DNA from: Acidobacteriota bacterium
GTDB lineage: Bacteria > Acidobacteriota > Terriglobia > Acidiferrales > UBA7541
Assembly (NCBI GenBank): GCA_013289825.1
Contig: JABCZF010000002.1
Location: 124,001-188,000, forward strand
Direction of reading: 5' to 3'
DNA length: 64,000 nt
The notes below the pieces were generated by a model that saw nothing but the letters and a program-made list of their open reading frames with translations, made no database searches and was not told the DNA's origin. Position numbers and translations under genes: made by a program. This document shows, in pieces, positions 8,986 through 15,701 of the stretch; positions within the stretch are counted from its first letter, which is position 1; the number at the start of each line of letters is the position of its first letter.

Positions 8986-9160
8986 CTATCCCCCGCCCTC
9001 TCCGAGCGATCTGGCGTCTCTCGCTAAGCTCAGGAGATTAGATGTTGCAAGCGGACGGAAGATTGCCTGGCAGGTTCTTAAAACACGCTCATGGTCAGGC
9101 GGGTAAAGTCGCTACATAAGTTGTACTTATTTGCTGAAACAAAACTATTAATTTGACTGA

Positions 9161-9190
9161 TTGACTTCCCTGCCTCCATCCTGTTATCTT
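9161..9190 (+). promoter_or_regulatory. Candidate promoter of the ilv leader
   Basis: TTGACT (9161-9166) and TATCTT (9185-9190) are separated by 18 bases and resemble a housekeeping -35/-10 pair with five and four matches. A second TTGACT occurs at 9153. Initiation about seven bases downstream would leave only a very short 5' leader before the leader-peptide ATG at 9205. Predicted by eye only. Confidence 0.4.
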
Positions 9191-9204
9191 CATGGCGGCT
9201 TAGT

Positions 9205-9324
9205 ATGGATCCTGTCGCCATCTCGAACGCGCGGCCTGTCCCTCGGGAATTTCTGAGGGGCACTGGAACGAGCGTGGTCGTACGAATTACCCCTGTCATC
9301 GTACGGGGAGTAACATATAGATGA
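9205..9324 (+). CDS. ilv operon leader peptide (Val/Ile-rich)
   Basis: A 39-codon open frame starting ATG at 9205 and ending TGA at 9322-9324. Its second half reads TSVVVRITPVIVRGV, so seven of fifteen codons in that run are Val and two are Ile. This is the arrangement expected of a leader peptide whose translation senses charged Val- and Ile-tRNA. Its stop codon lies directly at the start of the antiterminator strand, and a Rho-independent terminator follows 34 bases later. No good Shine-Dalgarno sequence precedes the ATG, which fits a near-leaderless transcript from the candidate promoter at 9161-9190. The opposite-strand frame covering this stretch is a shadow. Confidence 0.75.
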   Translation: MDPVAISNARPVPREFLRGTGTSVVVRITPVIVRGVTYR

Positions 9325-9397
9325 TGGTCGCCTAGGACAGCATCACCGGAGAGTTTCGGGGCCATCATCAAAACCAAGATGATGGCCCCAATTTTTT
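9293..9397 (+). promoter_or_regulatory. ilv transcription attenuator with competing hairpins
   Basis: Three mutually exclusive pairings can be drawn. Strand 1, CTGTCATC (9293-9300), lies inside the leader's Val/Ile codons and can pair with strand 2, GATGATGG (9320-9327), using two wobble pairs. Strand 2 is perfectly complementary over eight bases to CCATCATC (9362-9369), strand 3. Strand 3 is also the left arm of the terminator, strand 4 being 9378-9389. Stalling on Val/Ile codons would free strand 2 to sequester strand 3 and prevent termination. The layout is that of proteobacterial ilv/his/trp attenuators (established mechanism); its use here is inferred. Confidence 0.72.
9358..9397 (+). 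terminator. Rho-independent terminator of the ilv attenuator
   Basis: Perfect 12-base-pair stem GGGGCCATCATC (9358-9369) with GATGATGGCCCC (9378-9389), an eight-base A/C loop, then AA followed by six T residues (9392-9397). It lies between the leader peptide and ilvD. Confidence 0.88.
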
Positions 9398-9449: not shown

Positions 9450-11207
9450 GTGACTGGATCTCTACTGAAGCCTCGTAGCAGCGCACTTACCGACGGCCCA
9501 CATCGTGCCGGAGCCCGCTCCATGTTGCGCGCTTGCGGTCTTGGGGATGACGATTTTAGGAAGCCCCTCGTCGGCGTGGCCAATACTTGGATCGAAATCG
9601 GCCCCTGCAACTATCACCTTCGCGAACTTGCTGTACACGTCAAGGATGGCATTCGTGCCGCCGGCGGCACTCCTCTCGAATTCAACACCGTTTCCATCTC
9701 TGATGGCATCACCATGGGCACGGAGGGCATGCGTGCGTCGCTCATCAGCCGCGAGGTCATTACCGATTCCATCGAACTCGTCACTCGCGGCAATCTCTTC
9801 GACGCTCTTATCGTTTTAGTCGGATGTGACAAGACCATCCCCGCCGGCATCATGGCTCTGGCGCGTTTGAATATTCCCGGCCTGGTTCTCTACGGCGGCT
9901 CGATCGCGCCCGGAAAATTTGAAGGTCATGCGGTCACGATTCAGGACGTTTACGAAGCCATCGGCAGCCATTCGCATGGTGGAATGTCCGACGCCCGTTT
10001 CAAAGCACTGGAAGACTCCGCATGTCCGGGAGCGGGCGCTTGCGGCGGGCAGTTCACCGCCAATACCATGGCCCTCGTCTCGGAATTCCTCGGCATCGCT
10101 CCAATGGGTCTCTCGAGCGTTCCCGCTACGGATGCGGGCAAGGCCCATGCCGGCCACCGCGCAGGCGAACTGGTTATGGATCTTCTTCGCGGCGACGTCA
10201 CCCCGTCGAAAATCATCACCAAGGCGGCCATCGAAAACGCCATCGCCGGAGTCGCCGCCACCGGCGGCTCGACAAACTCCGTCTTGCATCTGCTGGCGAT
10301 CGCCAACGAAGCGCACATTCCGCTTACGATCGACGACTTCGACGGCATCAGCCGACGCGTTCCCATTATTGCCGACCTAAAACCCGGCGGACGTTTCGTG
10401 GCCACCGATCTCTACGCCGCCGGGGGCACTGCGCTGGTTGCCAAACGGCTTCTTGACGCGGAATTCCTTCGCGGCGACGCCCTTACGGTCACTGGGCGCA
10501 CGCTCGCCGAAGAAGCCGCTGCGGCCAGAGAGACTCCTCGACAGGAAGTCGTGCGAAAAATCGACGCGCCTCTGAAACCGACAGGCGGCTTGGTCATTTT
10601 AAAAGGCAATCTCGCGCCCGAGGGCTCGGTCATAAAAGTTGCAGGTCACGACTTTCAAAACTTCCGCGGCCCGGCGCGCGTTTTCGATAACGAAGAAGCC
10701 GCTTTCGCCGCCGTCGAGCGCAACCAAATCCACTCGGGCGATGTCGTGGTAATCCGCTACGAAGGTCCCAAGGGCGGCCCCGGCATGCGCGAAATGCTGG
10801 CGGTCACCGCCGCGCTGGTCGGCCGAGGTCTTGGCGATTCCGTTGCCCTGCTCACCGACGGGCGTTTTTCCGGCGCCACACACGGCTTCATGGTCGGCCA
10901 CGTTGCACCGGAAGCCGCGAACGGCGGCCCCATCGCGGCTATCGCCGATGGCGACACGATTGTCTTCGACATAGCAAGCCGCAAACTCGACGTTGAGCTG
11001 ACCGACGCCGAAATCGAAGAGCGCCTGGCCTCCTGGAAGCCTCCGGCTCCGCGTTTCTCGAGCGGCGTAATGGCCAAATACGCTTTACTGGTTTCCTCTG
11101 CGGCTATCGGCGCGATCACCGCCGTGCCCGCTTCTTTTCTATCACCAACTCGGGCTCAAATACTTGCGTCAAATCCTCGACACGCGCAATCGGGAAGGAC
11201 CCTATGA
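9450..11207 (+). CDS. ilvD: Dihydroxy-acid dehydratase
   Basis: Fe-S enzyme that dehydrates 2,3-dihydroxy-isovalerate and -methylvalerate to the 2-oxo acids of valine and isoleucine synthesis, in the cytoplasm. The three conserved cluster cysteines are visible at C53 (GPCNYH), C126 (GCDKTIPAG) and C198 ([11 protein letters not shown]), and the length of 585 residues is normal. The start is GTG at 9450 behind GGGAGGAG (9433-9440). It is the first structural gene after the attenuator and overlaps ilvB by four bases, so the pair is translationally coupled. Gene order ilvD-B-N-C puts the late dehydratase before the earlier enzymes. Confidence 0.96.
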
Positions 11208-12916
11208 AGCTCACCGGCGCAGAAATTCTCTGCGAATCGCTCACCAAGCTGGGCGTGCAACACATTTTCGGATACCCCGGCGGCGCGATTCTTCCCGTTT
11301 ACGACGCCCTCGGTAAATCCAAGCTCCATCACATTCTCGTGCGCCACGAACAGGGCGCCACGCACATGGCTGACGGATATGCGCGCGCCACGGGTGGCGT
11401 TGGCGTGGCCATGGCAACTTCCGGGCCAGGCGCAACCAACATGGTCACCGGAATCGCCACCGCCATGCTCGATTCCTCTCCCGTTGTGTGCATCACTGGC
11501 CAGGTGAGCAGCAAGCTGCTCGGAACTGACGCCTTTCAAGAAATTGACATCACCGGCATCACCATGCCGATCACCAAGCACAACGTCGTCGTGTCTCGCG
11601 CCGAGGACGTCGCGCGCACCGTCCGCGAAGCCTTCGTCATCGCGAACACCGGACGACCCGGCCCGGTTCTCGTCGATATCACCAAAGACGCGCAACAGGC
11701 TTCTTGTGAATTCGATTGGGAGGCCTGCGCTCCAAGACTTCCCCAGAAACGCCTGCGCAACGATCACAATCAGGCCGAATTCGACCGCGCCCTCGAATTG
11801 CTCAACACCGCAAAGCGCCCGCTCATTCTCGCGGGCCGCGGCATCATGCTTTCCGGCGCGATGCGCGCTTTCGAGCAATTTGTTCGCACCTCGAACATTC
11901 CCGTGGCCATGACCCTGCTCGGCATCGGCTGCTTCCCGGCCTCCGATCCGATGAACCTCGGCATGATGGGTATGCACGGCGAAGCCTGGGTCAATCACGC
12001 CATTCAAGAATCCGATCTGCTCATCGCCATCGGCATGCGCTTTGATGACCGTGTCACCGGCGACCTGCGCACTTACGCGAAGGGCGCACGCAAGATTCAC
12101 ATCGAAATCGACCGCGCGGAGATCAACAAGAACGTCAAAGTGGACGCGGCTCTGGTCGGGGATGCTCGCCAGACGCTCGAAAAGCTCATCCCCCACACCG
12201 CCAACCCGGACCGCGGCCCGTGGCTTGCTCATATCAAGGAGCTAAAGGGTGATTCCGCCGTGCGCGACATCCAAAGCCTTCCCGACAACGGCCATCTTTA
12301 CGCCGCTCACGTCATCAACGACCTCTGGAAAGAAACGCGCGGCGAAGCCATCGTCGTCACCGACGTCGGCCAGCACCAGATGTGGGAAGCGCAGTATTAC
12401 CACCACAACCAGCCCCGCACGCTCATTACTTCGGGCGGCCTGGGCACCATGGGTTTTGCCCTGCCCGCGGCCATCGGCGCAAAATTCGCAAAGCCGGAAT
12501 CCGAGGTGTGGGTGGTCGCGGGCGATGGCGGTTTTCAGATGACCATGTGCGAGCTCGCCACCATCGTGCAGGAAAAAATCAACATCAAGATCGCCATTAT
12601 CAATAACGGTTTTCTCGGCATGGTCCGCCAGTGGCAGGAATTTTTCTACGACAAGCGTTACGTCGCGACACCCCTGGTAGCGCCCGATTTCGCCGCCCTC
12701 GCGAATGCCTTCGGCATCCGCGGCGAGCGCATCACAGCCCGCGGAGACGTGCTTCCGACAATTCGCTCCGCGCGCGAATCCAAGGAAACCGTGCTCATCG
12801 ATTTCCGCGTCGAGCAGGAAGACTCCGTCTATCCCATGGTTCCTGCGGGCGCTTCTCTCCACGAAATGATTCGCCGCCCCAATAACCCGCTGGTCGAAAC
12901 GGCATCGGAGCCCTAG
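11204..12916 (+). CDS. ilvB: Acetolactate synthase, large catalytic subunit
   Basis: ThDP/FAD enzyme that condenses pyruvate with pyruvate or 2-oxobutyrate, the first common step of Val/Leu/Ile synthesis. The N-terminal domain has the catalytic Glu in [16 protein letters not shown]. The central FAD domain follows, and the C-terminal ThDP-binding motif is [16 protein letters not shown] with IINN. Length (570 residues) is typical. The ATG overlaps the ilvD stop (ATGA). The regulatory subunit gene follows within 25 bases, as expected for a biosynthetic, feedback-regulated enzyme and not a catabolic AlsS. Confidence 0.96.
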
Positions 12917-12939
12917 AGGCCTTGGGCAAGGAGGACACC

Positions 12940-13470
12940 ATGCAAACACTGGTCGCATACGTCGAAAACAAACCGGGCGTGCTCAACCGCGTCTCCTCGC
13001 TCGCTCGACGGCTGGCCATCAACATCGATTCCCTCACGGTCGGTCCGACGGATAATCCGCAAGTCGCGCGCATGACCATCGTCGCCCACACCGACGAAAA
13101 AGGCGGCCATCGTCTGGAAGCCAGCCTGGAAAAACTGGTCGACGTTCTGCTGGCGGAAAACATCTCCGAACGCTCCTTGCTCGAGCGCGATTTGGCACTG
13201 ATCAAAGTCCTCGCGGACCAGCAATCCCGTCCGCACCTCATGGAGCTGATCAAAGTTTTCCGCGCCCGCGTGGTAGATGTCGCTCCGGAATCGCTGATCA
13301 TCGAGGTCTCCGGCACCGTAGATAAAATCGACGGCCTCCTCGAAGTCCTCCGCCCTTTCGGCGTTCTGGAAATGGCGCGCAGCGGCCGCATAAGCATGAC
13401 TCGTGGCGGAGACCTGCTTCGTCCGCCAGGCGCCGCGATGGCTTCCGTCGAACCGGCCAACGTGACGTAA
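12940..13470 (+). CDS. ilvN: Acetolactate synthase, small regulatory subunit
   Basis: Regulatory partner of IlvB that confers valine feedback inhibition (family knowledge). The 176-residue product begins [19 protein letters not shown], a classic ACT domain, followed by [20 protein letters not shown] and the C-terminal ALS_ss_C region. ATG at 12940 is chosen because AAGGAGG lies just upstream at 12928-12934; a TTG at 12922 would add only six residues. The length is that of the long IlvH-type subunit. Confidence 0.93.
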
Positions 13471-13597: not shown

Positions 13598-14635
13598 ATG
13601 GCAAATCTCTACTACGACGACTCCGCAGATCTCGCTCTGATCCAATCCAAAAAAGTCGCCATCATCGGCTACGGCTCGCAAGGCCACGCCCATTCTCTAA
13701 ATCTCCGTGACAGCGGGGTAAGCGTCCGCGTTGGCCTCCCGGAAGGCAGCGCCTCCCGCGCCAAAGCTGAAAAAGAAGGCCTCACGGTCAACACCCCCGC
13801 CCAAGCCGCCGCATGGGCCGACGTCATCATGATTCTTGCGCCCGACACGAAGCAGCCGAAACTCTATCGCGAGCAGATCGAGCCGCATCTCCTAAAAGGC
13901 AAGACGCTCATGTTCGCCCACGGCTTCAACATCCGTTTCGGCACCATCAAGCCGCCCGCAAGCGTTGACGTGTCCATGATCGCGCCCAAGGCCCCCGGCC
14001 ATCGCGTCCGCGAAGTCTTCACCGAAGGCGGCGGCACGCCAGCTCTTATCGCCGTCGAACAAGACCCGAGCGGCAGCGCCAAGGCTCTCGCGCTCTCTTA
14101 CGGCAAAGGTCTCGGGTGCACCCGCGCCGGCGTTCTGGAAACCACCTTCACCGAAGAAACCGAAACCGATCTGTTCGGAGAACAAGCCGTCCTCTGCGGC
14201 GGCGTCAGCGAACTCATCAAAGCTGGCTTTGACACGCTGGTGGCCGCAGGCTATCAACCGGAAGTGGCCTATTTCGAATGCATGCACGAACTCAAACTCA
14301 TCGTTGATCTTATCTACCGCGGCGGCCTCAGCTACATGCGCTATTCCGTCAGCGACACAGCCGAACAAGGCGACTACACCGCCGGCCCGCGCATCATCAC
14401 GCAAAAAACCCGCGAAGAAATGCGCCAAATCCTGGCGGAAATCCGCGACGGCAGCTTTGCCAAAAAGTGGATTGCGGAAAATGAAGCGGGCTGCCCGAAC
14501 TTCCTCGCGACGCGCAAGCGCGAGCAAAGCCATCCCGTCGAACAGCTCGGTCCCAAGCTTCGCGCCATGATGCCCTTTCTCCAGCCGGTTATCGCTCCTG
14601 GCCTTGAAGAAAAGGCCGCGGCCTCAAAAAAATGA
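13598..14635 (+). CDS. ilvC: Ketol-acid reductoisomerase
   Basis: NADPH- and Mg-dependent isomeroreductase acting on acetolactate or acetohydroxybutyrate. The N-terminal Rossmann motif is [17 protein letters not shown], and the C-terminal knotted domain shows [11 protein letters not shown] and [17 protein letters not shown]. At 345 residues it is a short class I enzyme. The ribosome-binding site AAGAGG lies just before the ATG. The 127-base gap after ilvN carries a small hairpin (GGCCG 13570-13574 with CGGCC 13580-13584) directly upstream of that site, which could modulate initiation (inference). It closes the ilv operon. Confidence 0.96.
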
Positions 14636-14831: not shown

Positions 14832-15701
14832 ATGAAACGACCTTCGGTTCCTCTGCAAGCCTCGGTTCCCTCTCTCGCCGAGCGCATCGAACTCCTCAGT
14901 GCCAAGCGCCAGGAGATCATCCGCCCCATTCTCGAGCATCCGCGCGACTACGTTCTCTTAAGCGTGCGCGCCATGGCCAAACGCCTTCGCACCGACCCCG
15001 CCACAGTCGTTCGCATCGTCCGCGGCCTCGGTTTTGCCAGCTATCGTGACTTTCAACGCCATCTCCACGACCTGTCCATCGCCTTCGCCACTTCTCTCGA
15101 CACCATGCAATCCGCGGGCCGCGTCACCAGCATGCCCGCCTACGTCCGCGAGGCCCTGGAGCAAGACCTCAAGAATCTCCACGGCCTCAAGAACAGCCTC
15201 GATGCCCCACGCCTGGTCTCCCTGGCCAAACGCTTCTATGACGCCCGCCGCATCGTGCTCCTTGCCGGCGATCTAGCCGCTTTTCTCGCCGATTATCTCG
15301 AGTATCAAATCACGCTGCTCGGCCTGCCAGTCTTCACCGCCACGTCCGCCGGCCGCATCGCTCACCTGGTCCGCACCGTCAACCAGCGCGACCTGGTCCT
15401 GGCCATCAGCTTCCGCCGCGGCCTCCGCCAAACCGTCGAAGGCGTGCATCTGGCCCACGCGCGCAGCGCCTATTGCGTGGGCATCGCGGACACCTACGTC
15501 TCCCCCCTGGCCCGCGAATGCGACGAAGTGTTCCTCGCCAGCGTCGAATCCACCTCCTTCGGCGCTTCCTACGCCGCCCCCGTCGCCCTCGTCAACGCCA
15601 TCCTCGCCGCCTGCGGCCAGTACCGCCGTCCGCAGACCCTGGCCATCCTCAAAGAGATAGCTGAAGAGCAGCGCAAAGGCTTCCGCTGGTACACGGTTTG
15701 A
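14832..15701 (+). CDS. RpiR/MurR-family transcriptional regulator (HTH + SIS)
   Basis: Sugar-phosphate-type repressor of 289 residues. The N-terminal HTH_6 domain occupies about residues 15-90 (LLSVRAMAKRLRTDPATVVR, then LGFASYRDFQRHL). A SIS sugar-isomerase domain follows from about 130 to 265 (IVLLAGDLAAFLADYL, DLVLAISFRRGLRQTV). In this family the SIS domain binds phosphorylated sugars; MurR, for example, senses N-acetylmuramate 6-phosphate (family knowledge). It stands between the ilv operon and the murein-peptidase genes, all on the same strand, and may regulate the latter (inference). A palindrome lies just upstream. Confidence 0.85.
   Translation: MKRPSVPLQASVPSLAERIELLSAKRQEIIRPILEHPRDYVLLSVRAMAKRLRTDPATVVRIVRGLGFASYRDFQRHLHDLSIAFATSLDTMQSAGRVTSMPAYVREALEQDLKNLHGLKNSLDAPRLVSLAKRFYDARRIVLLAGDLAAFLADYLEYQITLLGLPVFTATSAGRIAHLVRTVNQRDLVLAISFRRGLRQTVEGVHLAHARSAYCVGIADTYVSPLARECDEVFLASVESTSFGASYAAPVALVNAILAACGQYRRPQTLAILKEIAEEQRKGFRWYTV

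Follow-up and report, generated by a model that had tools for sequence, protein, structure and literature searches.

A probable valine/isoleucine attenuator before ilvDBNC in an acidobacterium, and a related scaffold across the phylum

Is the short open reading frame upstream of the ilv genes of this acidobacterium the leader peptide of an attenuator? We analysed a stretch of 64,000 nucleotides (hereafter, the window) from a genome assembly of 56 contigs. The initial annotation placed an ilvD-ilvB-ilvN-ilvC operon here, and all four genes score above the cut-offs of the corresponding TIGRFAM models (Table 1). A gene for an RpiR-type regulator (HTH_6 and SIS domains) lies 3' of ilvC, at 14832-15701. 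We looked for further copies of the leader in the same genome; the homologs of leuA, hom, and ilvA are without a similar one.

The leader reads from ATG at 9205 to TGA at 9322-9324 and its 39 codons specify MDPVAISNARPVPREFLRGTGTSVVVRITPVIVRGVTYR (window ORF reading). Eight of codons 24-36 are for valine or isoleucine, and the operon behind them is ilvDBNC. Such a density is rare: at least seven valines or isoleucines within 13 residues occur in just 2 of the 556 ATG-started ORFs of 20-60 amino acids in the window, and the leader is one of the two. The annotated 12-base-pair terminator also holds up. Its hairpin (9358-9389) has 12 perfect pairs and an 8-nt loop, six Ts follow at 9392-9397, and the folding energy is -23.8 kcal/mol (z -6.9). 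Among the strong terminators in the window, only this one (9358-9397) has a Val/Ile-rich ORF 5' of it. The proposed antiterminator joins 9320-9327 (GATGATGG) to 9362-9369 (CCATCATC) by eight perfect pairs, and the region 9318-9372 folds with -20.4 kcal/mol (z -3.4). This helix, between segments 2 and 3, and the terminator, between segments 3 and 4, are mutually exclusive, and the leader's TGA lies inside segment 2. Leader, antiterminator, and terminator stand in an order and at a spacing suited to attenuation.

Table 1. Features of the leader and operon, with positions in the window
Feature	Position	Strand	Basis or remark
Promoter region: conserved TATTAATTTGACT block, -35 TTGACT (9161-9166), extended -10 TGtTATCTT	9145..9190	+	pattern scan and genus alignment
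5' inverted repeat TGGCGGC (9193-9199) / GTCGCCA (9214-9220) flanking the leader start; candidate hairpin or operator	9193..9220	+	
Leader peptide gene, 39 codons and TGA	9205..9324	+	frame and length kept in about 25/31 genus loci
Candidate segment 1 (CGCCATC), complementary to segment 2	9216..9222	+	leader codons 4-6; paired in 87.5% of cells
Sensor codons V24 V25 V26 R I28 T P V31 I32 V33 R G V36	9274..9312	+	VVRI(I)PV..RG conserved in the genus
P1 hairpin within the sensor codons (CCCUGU/ACGGGG in the window)	9290..9309	+	covaries; forms in the window fold
Segment 2 (GATGATGGT), 5' arm of the antiterminator, includes the leader stop	9320..9328	+	97.3% paired with segment 3 in 26 relatives
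Overlapping tiny ORF ATG ATG GTC GCC TAG; second stop 9333-9335	9321..9335	+	stop kept in 28/31 genus loci
Segment 3 (GGGGCCATCATC)	9358..9369	+	pattern scan, pairing in genus alignment
Intrinsic terminator, segments 3:4 and T run	9358..9397	+	between the leader and the first gene, ilvD
ilvD, dihydroxy-acid dehydratase	9450..11207	+	TIGR00110 above cut-off
ilvB, acetolactate synthase large subunit	11204..12916	+	TIGR00118 above cut-off
ilvN, acetolactate synthase small subunit	12937..13470	+	TIGR00119 above cut-off
ilvC, ketol-acid reductoisomerase	13598..14635	+	TIGR00465 above cut-off

A Val/Ile-rich ORF followed by a strong terminator might in principle be a chance arrangement without function. 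The rarity of the combination in the window speaks against this, and comparison with relatives refutes it. We detected IlvD relatives in 66 of the 89 genomes of the family, and we compared the regions upstream of ilvD from 33 genomes that belong to the same genus as the window. Of these, 31 retain both segment 2 and the terminator, which L020 and L026 lack. About 25 of these 31 loci have an in-frame Val/Ile-rich leader that ends at segment 2; for L005, L007, L008, and L010, we settled the frame by reading the sequences. The related genomes, which the initial annotation had named as the place to check, mostly retain both the codons and the terminator stem, and we give a chance arrangement virtually no credence. 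The ATG is usually exactly 39 codons 5' of the stop. VVRI(I)PV..RG is the most conserved part of the leader, and divergence affects most of the other codons. L002 has a TAG stop just 5' of ATGATG, and in L006 the leader extends to a second stop (discussed below). The leader is broken or lost in the other six loci (L009, L015, L023, L024, L025, and L027), which keep the terminator; some of these may be assembly errors. A covariance model that runs from segment 2 to the T run (R1) matches 31 of 36 genomes of the genus, only upstream of ilvD and with one copy per genome.

To quantify the conservation of the helices, we used an alignment of 26 leaders from the genus and shuffle tests, which ignore relatedness. 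The terminator is paired in 95.8% of cells and has 10 double-change cells, and none of 500 shuffles was as high. The antiterminator is paired in 97.3% of cells, and L015 has a compensatory change in it from G-C to A-U. Both helices are therefore supported by conservation and by compensatory changes, as expected for the covarying stems that had been proposed as a check. In contrast, the third pairing of the initial annotation, 9293-9300 with 9320-9327 as segments 1 and 2, does not stand. Eight pairs can be drawn (two of them G-U), but the fold computed for 9288-9330 (z -0.6) does not contain them, and in the 26 relatives 79.7% of cells are paired, versus 79.6% in shuffled columns. Two other elements are better supported. 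P1, the hairpin among the sensor codons, shows strong covariation, with 14 double-change cells and no equally high value in 500 shuffles. For segment 2, most relatives have their best partner, or one close to it, in the CGCCATC block of leader codons 4-6; in the window itself, the match between the two is short and weak. CGCCATC also pairs with TGGCG just 5' of the leader start, within the inverted repeat around that start; this repeat is paired in 86.8% of cells in the 26 relatives, and 1 of 500 shuffles was equally high.

A pattern scan found a promoter-like TTGACT at 9161 and, after a spacer of 18, TATCTT ending at 9190. Given this promoter, transcription probably starts near 9197, which would leave a 5' UTR of about 8 nt before the ATG of the leader. 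Because its upstream arm straddles the predicted start, the 5' inverted repeat may not be wholly in the RNA, and it may act in RNA or in DNA. The initial annotation considered the leader to be almost leaderless, which agrees with the predicted 5' UTR, and to be novel in this respect, which does not hold: the leader peptide of Corynebacterium glutamicum ilvBNC reportedly forms without a ribosome binding site (Morbach 2000, as cited in PMC10272879). Farther upstream, the TATTAATTTGACT block (9145-9158 in the window) is also present in L020 and L026, the two loci without the leader. A TATTAATTTGACT- or ATTATAAATTTGACT-like block is found upstream of ilvD across genera and classes (L032, L034, and L120-L129), even where there is no leader. 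It is possibly an activator site or a promoter element.

Sequence and comparison together establish the segments, the position of the stop, the codons, and the competing helices of the ilvDBNC leader. From these we infer stalling, masking, and termination in the cell, as follows. RNA polymerase would start just 5' of 9205, and the near-leaderless ORF would take up a ribosome. A shortage of Val- or Ile-tRNA would stall this ribosome at codons 24-33 (9274-9303). Segment 2 (9320-9328) would then be free to pair with segment 3 (9361-9369), the terminator would not form, and ilvDBNC would be transcribed. If valine and isoleucine are plentiful, the ribosome would reach the TGA at 9322-9324 inside segment 2 and would cover that segment, so that segment 3 would pair with segment 4 and transcription would end at the T run. 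The distances of the stall site and the stop codon are judged from established ribosome footprints. Ribosome-mediated transcription attenuation is by far the best explanation for this leader, and we put its probability at roughly 90%. Of the attenuation logic in the initial annotation, the codons, the antiterminator, and the terminator remain, while the protector pairing as drawn does not.

The region between the leader and the terminator has another conserved feature, which is a second stop codon. Across the genus, the leader's TGA overlaps ATG/GTG-ATG-GCN-GCN-stop. In 28 of 31 loci the second stop is present as TAG, TAA, or TGA, and third codon positions vary. The loci without it (L024, L025, and L027) are all among those that have lost the leader. 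In other acidobacteria, the equivalent site is often ATGATGTAG or ATGAGGTGA; in some loci (for instance L153, L165, L192, and L193), the leader itself is read in the frame of the tiny ORF; and many of the phylum's other BCAA loci have no second stop. L007, L008, and L010 also have a longer ORF in the second frame, which is not kept in relatives and which we disregarded. The second stop may mark a tiny ORF that is coupled to the leader. Either this mini-ORF is translated and coupled, or the site may serve as a stop signal that is frame-proof. Translation of the tiny ORF would place ribosomes on ATGATGGTCGCC.

The second stop could also be taken to mean that the leader works mainly in translation: the leader and the overlapping ATGATG..stop ORF would feed ribosomes to the operon or insulate it, and the hairpin would be an ordinary basal terminator. 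The overlap of the two stops in 28/31 genus loci fits this, as does a published proposal of short leader ORFs with reinitiation that extends to Acidobacteria (PMC4833913). However, about 125 nt separate the leader stop from ilvD, too great a distance for simple coupling, and the nearly invariant antiterminator pairing also speaks against this explanation. We consider this explanation very improbable.

We also looked beyond the genus. R1 matches 47 of 396 acidobacterial genomes, spread over the phylum. Within the order, it matches one further genome (G067), in which an Ile-rich leader (MRVIPAIGIRIIRISKHPGSG) and the scaffold (L151:230-470) precede a gene that resembles threonine dehydratase, as judged by eye. 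We built a second covariance model (R2) of the scaffold of segments 2, 3, and 4 from diverse hits, with the sensor codons excluded. R2 matches 62 of 396 acidobacterial genomes, from 33 genera. This is a slight overcount, since several weak matches in group f4, which belongs to the same class (such as L219, L222, L230, L244, and L245), resemble ordinary leaderless terminators. In a control that contains no positive genome, R2 matches none of 46 genomes whose records place them elsewhere, for example in Nitrospira, Chloroflexi, Actinomycetota, or Poribacteria. The initial annotation's picture of an isolated case was therefore too small.

Among the acidobacterial scaffold matches, Val/Ile/Leu-rich leaders stand before ilvD, ilvB, ilvN, ilvA, cimA, and pheA-ilvD. 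Thr-rich leaders, such as MQTHPSAATTIVITTTTCGVPRG in L174, stand before aspartokinase/homoserine dehydrogenase (thrA/hom). A Cys-rich leader is found before siroheme synthase (cysG) in L157 and, in L226, before an operon with genes for a SrpI-like encapsulin and a JAB-domain protein downstream; L242 also has a Cys-rich leader with a JAB-domain gene downstream. The leaders of L226 and L242 hint at cysteine control of encapsulin genes. We counted codons in the last 24 codons of each leader, with the frame set by the stop and not by content. The mean count of Val, Ile, and Leu is 9.7 in BCAA loci versus 3.5 in both Thr and Cys loci; the mean count of Thr is 4.75 in Thr loci versus 1.4 in BCAA and 2.25 in Cys loci; and the mean count of Cys is 6.5 in Cys loci versus 0.3 in BCAA and 0.75 in Thr loci. 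Permuting the labels gives p of about 1e-4 or lower for each of Thr, Cys, and Val/Ile/Leu, which is optimistic because the test takes no account of relatedness and one genus supplies a disproportionate share of the ilvN cases. As read from their sequences, the codons of these leaders match the downstream pathway across Acidobacteriota. The ilvDBNC leader thus uses a scaffold that recurs throughout the phylum with differing sensor codons set into it; this recurrence may stem either from descent from a single element or from convergence on one stop-containing motif.

This correspondence bears on whether the terminator is real and regulated in some other way, by a protein, a small RNA, or the general rate of translation, with the peptide being incidental. 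There is a precedent: in the ilvB leader of Streptomyces coelicolor, the candidate codons were changed and regulation was unaltered (PMC1262725), so codons and a terminator do not prove the mechanism. Also, L024, L025, and L027 have no Val/Ile-rich leader and yet retain the terminator. Against this, the identity of the codons tracks the downstream pathway across the phylum, the length and frame of the leader are conserved in the genus, and neither the window nor any of 20 related loci matched a known riboswitch, T-box, or Rfam leader at the gathering score. We think that regulation by something other than stalling at Val/Ile codons is improbable.

Some leaders with the scaffold are in other contexts. 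In family f28, L199, L246, L247, and L248 have Leu-rich leaders, and we found no same-strand gene over roughly the next 2 kb (L199) or 3 kb (L246-L248); nearby ORFs look antisense to ilvC and ilvB. In L156, L164, and L190, Val/Ile/Leu-rich leaders and the scaffold precede genes for LysR-type regulators. In L166 and L202, the scaffold is before genes for the large subunit of glutamate synthase, with no clear sensor codons.

Other ilvD genes have leaders of different sequence. Genus g11 of the same family (L120, L121, L124, and L129) has short Val/Ile-rich peptides, such as MTRQISYPVYVIIGWGPPV (by eye), each followed by a GCCCCGC...GCGGGGC terminator, and R1 gives no match to them. Upstream of ilvD in Geothrix paludis (L067), a 42-codon Val/Ile-rich ORF precedes a GGCCCCGC...GCGGGGCC hairpin and a T run. 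Read by eye, this would be an ilvD attenuator of another sequence.

How does the acidobacterial leader compare to known systems? As in the proteobacterial trp, his, thr, leu, ilvGMEDA, and ilvB attenuators, the sensor codons are in a short ORF, the stop adjoins or sits in the segment to be masked, and an antiterminator competes with an intrinsic terminator. Unlike those attenuators, it has a different sequence and operon and no match to an Rfam leader family; a single motif (GATGATGGC/GCCATCATC/GATGATGGC) recurs as its segments 2, 3, and 4 and is common to leaders for different amino acids; and it has a very short predicted 5' UTR and an overlapping second stop. The ilvB leaders of Actinobacteria (the Corynebacterium ilvB-II motif, Mycobacterium, and Streptomyces) similarly combine an Ile/Leu/Val-rich peptide with a terminator before ilv genes. 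In Actinobacteria, however, the runs of Ile/Val/Leu codons reportedly overlap the terminator hairpin (PMC1262725), and the ilvB leader of Corynebacterium usually has 15-17 codons (PMC10272879), whereas the acidobacterial leader has 39 codons and lies 5' of a separate terminator. The ilvB-OMG and Leptospira ilvB motifs, in which BCAA- and Thr-rich short ORFs precede ilvB, are also proposed attenuators (PMC10272879); these are separate RNA motifs, and the Rfam search did not detect them at the ilvDBNC leader.

The initial annotation knew of no such attenuator in Acidobacteriota. Likewise, our search of open-access literature turned up no paper about leader peptides for amino acids in Acidobacteria; the 2010 survey by Lopatovskaya and co-workers possibly mentions one. 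Attenuation is an old mechanism. As far as this search shows, three things are new: the occurrence in this phylum, a scaffold that serves several amino acids, and a second stop that overlaps the first.

A broader proposal is that Acidobacteriota have one scaffold in which the sensor codons (Val/Ile, Thr, Cys, or Leu) are swapped, and that a ribosome fresh from terminating on the leader re-initiates at an AUGAUG...stop ORF of 2-5 codons, which the leader stop overlaps, and so prolongs the cover of segment 2. We offer this tentatively, as a minority expectation. If it is true, re-initiation would be a two-step device for parking ribosomes that is undescribed for other attenuators. The wider set of leaders gives a large and diverse soil phylum a coherent group of putative attenuators whose sensed amino acid can be read from the sequence. 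This may be a way to predict regulation in bacteria that are mostly uncultured, and it would amount to a natural experiment, with a constant RNA scaffold and changing sensor codons.
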